The notes below the pieces were generated by a model. That model saw nothing but the letters and a program-made list of their open reading frames with translations. It was not told the DNA's origin and searched no databases. From Halonatronum saccharophilum DSM 13868 (GTDB taxonomy: Bacteria > Bacillota > Halanaerobiia > Halobacteroidales > Halobacteroidaceae), in contig NZ_KI912091.1 of the NCBI RefSeq assembly GCF_000517025.1, forward strand, positions 51,816 through 115,815: 64,000 bases of DNA. The letters run 5' to 3'. Below, piece after piece: positions 52,745 through 53,267 of the stretch. How positions within the stretch are numbered: position 1 is the first letter of the stretch; each line of letters starts with the position of its first letter. A program made the position numbers and the translations under genes.

Positions 52745-52773
52745 TTGACAAAGGGAATATCTTATCTTATAAT
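52745..52773 (+). promoter_or_regulatory. Consensus sigma-A promoter before tRNA-Ala and leuS
   Basis: Exact TTGACA (52745-52750), 17-nt spacer, exact TATAAT (52768-52773). It is the best promoter in the window. Its transcript would run through 130 nt of leader, the tRNA, the T-box and leuS. Confidence 0.9.
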
Positions 52774-52782
52774 GATTATTGT

Positions 52783-52914
52783 TGAATTGAATATTAGTGG
52801 GCTAGGAAAAGGAGTAGTAGGCTTAAGCTGAACTCGCCTTGGAGCTTTATAAGTGAAGTAGTAGTAGCTTATACGGTTAACAGTCGTTATTCTGTTCTTA
52901 AGAGGATATGTTAT
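52783..52914 (+). promoter_or_regulatory. Possible T-box stem I region upstream of the tRNA
   Basis: Between the promoter and the tRNA lies a 130-nt leader with GGAAAAGGAGTAGTAG near its start and CGTTATTCTGTTCTTAAGAG near its end. Both resemble the beginning and end of stem I of T-box leaders, and CTT (Leu) occurs in AGTAGCTTATA. If correct, the T-box of leuS is split by the tRNA gene. Pairings could not be verified, so this is tentative. Confidence 0.35.
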
Positions 52915-52990
52915 GGGGATATAGCTCAGTTGGGAGAGCGCTTGTCTGGCAGACAAGAGGTCGCCGGTTCGAGCCCGGCTATCTCCACCA
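52915..52990 (+). tRNA. tRNA-Ala (anticodon GGC)
   Basis: A 76-nt cloverleaf with encoded CCA. Acceptor GGGGATA/TATCTCC includes the G3-U70 pair that identifies alanine tRNAs. The anticodon arm is CTTGT-CTGGCAG-ACAAG with GGC at 34-36; the T arm is CCGGTTCGAGCCCGG. The 3' CCA is also part of a 14-bp inverted repeat (52986-52999 with 53014-53027) that could compete with the acceptor stem. Confidence 0.96.
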
Positions 52991-53107
52991 AAAATTTCAA
53001 TTATAATACGCGATGAAATTTTTGGTGTTAGGTCATCGAGGCCGTCACACCACAAAATTTCAATTATTAAGTAATGGAAATTTTGTGATTGTGCTAATAT
53101 ATCAATT

Positions 53108-53179
53108 AGGGTGGTACCGCGAGAAAGAACTCTCGTCCCTAGTAAAGAATTATTTCTTTATTAGAGACGAGGGTTTTTT
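53108..53179 (+). promoter_or_regulatory. T-box antiterminator/terminator of leuS
   Basis: The T-box sequence AGGGTGGTACCGCG is at 53108-53121. The terminator stem is 53132-53171 (CTCGTC...GACGAG with long inner pairing), followed by a run of six T. Uncharged tRNA-Leu would stabilise the antiterminator and allow leuS transcription. The segment between the tRNA and the T-box is short (118 nt) and holds two similar hairpins (52986-53027 and 53051-53087). Confidence 0.88.
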
Positions 53180-53267
53180 ATAGATTTAGGGAATAATATT
53201 TTAAGAAGTTTGATTTTAATTATAAAGTATACATAAACTAACACTAAGTTAAAGGGGTTGTTGATAG

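Follow-up and report, generated by a model that had tools for sequence, protein, structure and literature searches.

The leuS leader of Halonatronum saccharophilum DSM 13868 is a Leu-specific T-box with a tRNA-Ala(GGC) gene nested in the loop of its Stem III. It lies in the window, the whole 64,000-nucleotide stretch of DNA that we analyzed, from a genome (G000) of 2.9 Mb in 8 contigs. The original prediction had embedded a tRNA-Ala gene in a leuS T-box leader, with the specifier part before it and the antiterminator of the same T-box after it. Rfam bears this out. Model RF00230 aligned full-length (model positions 1-219) to 52795-53143 on the + strand (E 9.1e-18, 84.1 bits) as one match that spans the tRNA. 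The match is interrupted within Stem III by 184 nt, and this insertion carries the tRNA gene. No complete T-box wholly downstream of the tRNA was found in the window. It follows from the position of the tRNA inside one T-box that its excision necessarily cuts the leader, as had been proposed. The prediction did not foresee that the tRNA is placed exactly in Stem III, nor that distant lineages have conserved the arrangement.

Organization of the leuS leader

All features of the leader are on the + strand. The upstream gene (52357-52698 in the ORF list) ends at an intrinsic terminator found by a terminator scan (52697-52728). A sigma-70 promoter, TTGACA-17-TATAAT at 52745-52773, agrees with the consensus at 12 of 12 positions and stands ahead of the whole leader. 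As predicted, it is the single consensus promoter: the promoter scan gave zero further promoter-like matches on the + strand from 52773 to 53500, and a looser scan of 52774-52914 and 53130-53268 found nothing. With the standard and looser scans both empty, a separate promoter for leuS in the window was rejected.

The 130-nt segment preceding the tRNA had been described as having Stem-I-like ends. Stem I is there (52801-52845, from the Rfam alignment and the sequence), though short, without its distal part and with GAGC at its 3' end, and the segment also holds Stem II and the Stem IIA/B region (52846-52889, Rfam alignment). Within GAACUCGCC, both sequence and alignment place the specifier CUC (Leu; CTC in DNA) at 52833-52835. 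The sequence AAGAG, the RRRxG motif 5' of Stem III, is found at 52900-52904. It is followed by the Stem III 5' arm GAUAUGU (52905-52911; Rfam alignment and covariation), which doubles as the tRNA 5' leader. The tRNA-Ala(GGC) gene at 52915-52990 (ARAGORN; Rfam 67.8 bits) is the sole tRNA that ARAGORN detects in the window, and it has the cloverleaf, GGC anticodon, A73 and encoded 3' CCA of a functional tRNA. The alignment assigns the Stem III 3' arm AUAUAUC to 53097-53103, followed by AA at 53104-53105. An antiterminator with the T-box bulge UGGU at 53112-53115 extends over 53108-53141 (sequence, Rfam alignment), and the T-box terminator, seen in the sequence and the MFE fold, over 53130-53179 with a T run at 53174-53179. 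The leuS gene, identified as an ORF and by its homologues, codes for a leucyl-tRNA synthetase of 824 aa at 53268-55742. In the unconstrained MFE fold of the whole G000 leader, a Stem III-like closing helix surrounds the tRNA and the terminator forms instead of the antiterminator. Elsewhere in this genome (G000:C2:281249-281714; L009, L012) two tandem T-box matches score 103.6 and 38.5 bits.

Identity of the T-box

The Stem I specifier agrees with the leuS gene downstream, and tRNA-Leu(GAG), cognate to CUC, is encoded in the same genome (L433). The window contains the order 5'-RRRxG-Stem III-AA-3' in full (AAGAG, GAUAUGU/AUAUAUC, AA), and the UGGU antiterminator bulge is accompanied by a competing terminator. 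Excerpts of PMC7778990 and PMC7583486 describe the RRRxG motif 5' of Stem III. The match nevertheless scores below the Rfam gathering score of 93, which is a curation cut-off and not a structural feature, so a default Rfam scan lists the tRNA alone. The low score is probably due to the insertion and the short Stem I. In relatives that share this architecture, scores reach 94-131 bits, and all eight nested loci tested from several phyla gave a single spanning T-box match of 73-131 bits, five of them exceeding the gathering score.

The distal Stem I elbow-binding module is absent from the window leader, with model positions about 30-80 deleted. It is also absent in G001, a relative whose T-box is without a tRNA, and present in L136, L138 and L147. 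As short Stem I variants are known, this module does not strictly define a T-box; an excerpt of PMC7583486 states that most translational T-boxes are without a long Stem I.

A dispersed repeat at the tRNA 3' end

A 14-bp inverted repeat including the CCA end of the tRNA had been noted earlier, and it is seen in the fold (52986-52999 / 53014-53027). A 68-nt repeat, CACCA...GTCACACCA, begins with the hairpin in which the CCA end is paired (52986-53027). This type of repeat occurs in the window as one full and one partial copy, both on the + strand. Copy 1 (67 nt) runs from the tRNA CACCA end over 52986-53052, and partial copy 2, CACCACAAAATTTC...GAAATTTTGTG, covers 53048-53094. Two similar sequences had been read as a local duplication, perhaps of a lost tRNA. 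The sequences are real, but the lost tRNA behind the duplicated CACCA-AAAATTTCAATT was rejected, as both belong to this dispersed repeat, which relatives have at other places too.

With the 68-nt query, similar copies were found in 18 of 59 genomes of the class. Of 30 repeat loci read, 11 start exactly where a tRNA gene (Ala, Lys, Val or Ile) has its 3' end, and the other 19 do not; two loci lie between rRNA genes. A search of G000 gave no strong second copy of the 124-nt spacer, and a query related to it matched 8 of 13 genomes. No Rfam family was found at the repeat element in the eight loci scanned. The repeat resembles a small element that may target tRNA 3' ends. It has two hairpins (CACCA...CACACCA) and CACCA at both ends; besides the window copies it was observed at L393, L396-L398, L400, L401 and L408, and it is free-standing elsewhere. 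Two roles for the tRNA end were rejected: general control by the CCA-pairing hairpin, as G005 and G007 have a nested tRNA without the hairpin, and universal pairing in cis of ACCA with UGGU, as L344 and L345 lack an encoded CCA.

Specifier, Stem III and promoters across leaders

To determine what is conserved, we assembled 115 tRNA-Ala loci with a T-box core within 330 nt, reducing to 104 unique leaders. A regular expression found AACTC upstream in 99 of the 104. By eye, the five it missed have CTC in four cases and TTT in one, from G006. With L142 dropped, 102 of 103 unique leaders have the CTC specifier.

Stem III also covaries. In 68 divergent representatives of 99 leaders, the Stem III flanks pair with their own partners at a mean of -11.7 kcal/mol versus -7.7 kcal/mol (sd 0.31) for permuted partners, and none of 2000 permutations was as low as the real value. 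Individually, in what is a weaker single-leader test, just 18 of the 68 fall in the best 5% of partner swaps. Anchoring the arms on the flanking motifs, we obtained 45 leaders passing both anchors (27 unique), the RRRxG-AA motif not being at the anchored place in every leader; here 130 of 162 cells are paired, against a permuted mean of 90 and maximum of 106 (5000 permutations). Seven leaders, mostly Chloroflexota with longer inserts, pair at only three of the six anchored positions. At Stem III position 2 the compensating pair types GC, AT and TA occur. RNase P substrates favour U at position -1, and a U precedes the tRNA in 79 of 99 leaders.

Of 90 leaders, 54 have a promoter matching the consensus at 10 of 12 positions ahead of the specifier, versus 2.1 expected. 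Promoter-like sequences of the same quality lie between specifier and tRNA in 10 of the 90 versus 0.7 expected, namely in G005, G007 and eight Ktedonobacteria-type leaders; a separate promoter for the tRNA is thus possible in these. Within or just past Stem IIA/B, at some distance ahead of the nested tRNA, TTGtcg/TTGACA-TATAat is seen in L135, L210, L211, L265, L271, L272, L274, L275, L055 and L056. It may be a tRNA promoter lying within the riboswitch.

The leuS leader in the nearest relatives

LeuS is encoded in all 61 nearest genomes. In 50 of these the DNA upstream of leuS was examined; 10 have tRNA-Ala(GGC) there, and all 10 are among the 13 nearest. The tRNA is within Stem III of a T-box in G000, G003, G004, G005, G006 and G007. 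One Rfam match spans the tRNA in three of the five nested relatives (G004, G005, G007), while G003 and G006 give two half T-box matches, one on each side of it; in G006 the specifier has decayed from CTC to TTT. Four genomes (G008, G009, G011, G012) have the promoter, the tRNA and a T-box-like terminator, with Stem I and the antiterminator absent. G523 (L336) is another with the T-box gone and the tRNA and terminator retained. Neither a T-box nor a tRNA is found at leuS in G002 and G010, just a T-box-like terminator. G001 has a T-box of 95.6 bits without a tRNA, and its tRNA-Ala(GGC) sits in a tRNA cluster. The LeuS tree places G001 inside the nested clade (support 0.87 and 0.99), suggesting that the nested tRNA was likely lost from its leuS leader. 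Where tRNA-Ala(GGC) is absent at leuS (G001, G002, G010 and the outgroups) it is encoded in clusters or elsewhere. Orphan T-box-like terminators before leuS, left after loss of Stem I and the antiterminator, were observed with tRNA-Ala at L061, L062, L063, L067 and L336, and without it at L058 and L073.

Distribution across bacteria

We surveyed genomes for T-box cores lying no more than 61 nt from the 3' half of a tRNA of any identity that ends in CCA; this pattern matched at least 119 stretches. The 119 listed comprise 88 with tRNA-Ala(GGC), 10 with other tRNAs and 21 without a called tRNA. Downstream of the 88 listed tRNA-Ala(GGC) stretches leuS is present in 81; of the seven exceptions, the flanks of four end early, leuS was not reached in two and one is a false match (L142, without leuS or Stem I). 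L138 and L216 have no leuS within the 1.1-1.7 kb of fetched DNA, and in several nested loci leuS starts 0.3-2 kb further on. Six of the 10 listed stretches with other tRNAs were scanned by Rfam, with no T-box in any. Nesting of other tRNAs in other T-boxes was rejected for these six, which are chance matches.

The matches represent Bacillota, Chloroflexota, Coprothermobacterota, Caldisericota, Atribacterota, Armatimonadota and one Actinomycetota bin, by labels that are record titles and may be wrong, some of the records being bins. The pattern matched 35 of 400 Chloroflexota genomes with no control match. In the Bacillota group to which G063 belongs, 61 of 299 genomes matched, with one control match. 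All 96 listed matches from these two groups have a CCACCA end and Ala-like acceptors.

In 60 leuS upstream regions sampled evenly from the G063 group, the strict core pattern found 11 with a T-box and tRNA-Ala(GGC), 16 with a T-box but no tRNA, three with tRNA-Ala only, 29 with none and one with another tRNA array. The strict expression misses variants, scoring L332 (a nested T-box, AGTGGTACCGCG) as tRNA-only and L313 (a variant core) as none; after inspection of variants the tally is 12 nested, 17 T-box alone, two tRNA-Ala only and 28 none. Cultured strains carry the nested arrangement, making it testable, for example Syntrophomonas wolfei subsp. methylbutyratica (L223), Thermosyntropha lipolytica (L152) and Ktedonobacter robiniae (L211).

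Several loci vary the layout. In L344 and L345 the nested tRNA-Ala is without an encoded CCA and the Stem III arm starts about 2 nt past the tRNA end. The nested leuS T-boxes of L145 and L196 are missing Stem II and IIA/B, with Stem I almost abutting Stem III and the tRNA. An Ala-like tRNA is directly upstream of the T-box Stem I in L208, and in L155 a tRNA at 4012-4084 is upstream of a T-box at 4179.

No prior account of a tRNA gene inside a T-box was found in open-licence PMC full text. The nested architecture is well supported by the sequence comparisons and is unreported in the open-licence papers searched.

A probable two-product leader and its alternatives

We think it probable that this is a nested two-product leader, in which the tRNA would be made regardless of termination and leuS only on antitermination. 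From one promoter the transcript would carry Stem I with its CUC, Stem II, the Stem III 5' arm, the tRNA, the 3' arm and the antiterminator/terminator. The folded tRNA would take the place of the Stem III loop. Because its two ends adjoin, the arms of Stem III would stay together, and the domain sensing uncharged tRNA-Leu would therefore be retained. This domain has its conserved parts and a covarying Stem III, consistent with its being functional. As the tRNA is upstream of the terminator, it would be made whether a transcript terminates or reads through, and the T-box terminator would serve also as the tRNA terminator. If the switch works like other T-boxes, uncharged tRNA-Leu would cause antitermination and leuS would be made. 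RNase P and 3' processing would excise the tRNA, separating Stem I from the antiterminator and giving the leuS mRNA a new 5' end; after the cut, Stem III could still join the leader pieces. The leuS, valS and serS T-boxes of S. aureus are in any case cleaved in this region by RNase Y (excerpt of PMC4608709). A sole tRNA-Ala(GGC) gene would lock the arrangement, such that the T-box can be lost and the tRNA stays.

We give roughly even weight, for and against, to a history of pure entrenchment: an old landing in a tolerant loop of what is the only tRNA-Ala(GGC) gene, with zero regulatory role. Consistent with this, the tRNA-Ala(GGC) pattern has exactly one match in each of 24 genomes (24 of the 80 reached via nested loci), and in the loci inspected by reading the matched letters equal the nested tRNA. 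Lineages without a leuS-linked copy have the gene in tRNA clusters or elsewhere, and the T-box decays while the tRNA persists. On a tree of 153 LeuS sequences, a sample enriched for nested loci with states assigned by a wider core pattern, nested versus other takes 25 changes compared with 51 for shuffled labels (minimum 41), the nested state being clustered. The arrangement may derive from an ancient event with many losses or from transfer of leuS with its leader; given the enriched sampling, both are compatible with the tree. Entrenchment is silent, however, on why Stem III and the switch are so widely retained around the tRNA. It is also compatible with the two-product leader, differing just in the absence of a benefit.

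Active coupling seems to us possible but doubtful. Stem III would be both the leader-trailer helix of the tRNA and part of the T-box discriminator, and processing and antitermination would compete: an early cut, with the antiterminator still to be transcribed, would divide the switch, and Stem III docking would slow tRNA processing. The Stem III helix does abut the tRNA: in 87 leaders with a duplex below -6, the median gap is 4 nt on the 5' side of the tRNA and 3 nt on the 3' side. Stem III is required for sensing the tRNA 3' end (excerpt of PMC7583486), and among the matches listed tRNA-Ala alone is found in leuS T-boxes over distant phyla. A single old event with inheritance can, however, explain the identity of the tRNA. 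The spacing ranges from 11 to 59 nt, reaching about 200 nt in some relatives, and G001 retains a good T-box without the tRNA.

A split, self-cutting riboswitch we regard as improbable. A 3'-extended tRNA mimics a charged tRNA. By this account ACCA near UGGU would mimic charged tRNA until processing removed the tRNA, the two pieces would stay joined by Stem III and bound tRNA-Leu, and leuS would read processing capacity as well as leucine.

It is very unlikely that tRNA insertion broke the T-box, leaving a relic leader with leuS expressed via read-through. The lost specifier of G006 and the f2 genomes, which have the tRNA and terminator only, would fit, but the near-universal CTC, the Stem III covariation and full-length T-box scores of up to 131 bits argue against it. 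We dismiss the idea that the arrangement is an assembly artefact or that the tRNA and the T-box consensus coincide by chance (the six non-Ala matches to the same pattern are of this chance kind), given the match counts against controls in Chloroflexota and the Bacillota group and carriers that include isolates as well as bins.

Relation to known systems

The nested leaders resemble the leuS-type T-box of RF00230 in their CUC Stem I, Stem II and IIA/B (absent in a few), RRRxG-Stem III-AA, UGGU bulge, antiterminator/terminator and downstream leuS. They differ in having the Stem III loop occupied by a functional-looking tRNA gene for another amino acid. Other T-boxes are known to have an insertion in Stem III as well; here the insert is itself a tRNA gene, which the excerpted descriptions do not mention. 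The E. coli tRNA-tufB operon produces a tRNA-mRNA cotranscript from one promoter, with the tRNA cut from the primary transcript. The nested leader is similar in placing tRNA and mRNA under one promoter, whereas in tRNA-tufB the tRNA is a separate upstream unit and not within a riboswitch helix.

Nested T-boxes may escape annotation, as the default scan of the window yields just the tRNA. T-boxes read tRNAs; the nested leader instead houses the gene, in sole copy and across distant phyla, for a tRNA of a different amino acid. It would tie tRNA-Ala synthesis to a leucine-responsive leader. It offers a natural experiment on Stem III, in which a large folded insert may be either tolerated or put to use, and suggests that a riboswitch cut in two can still be compatible with function.
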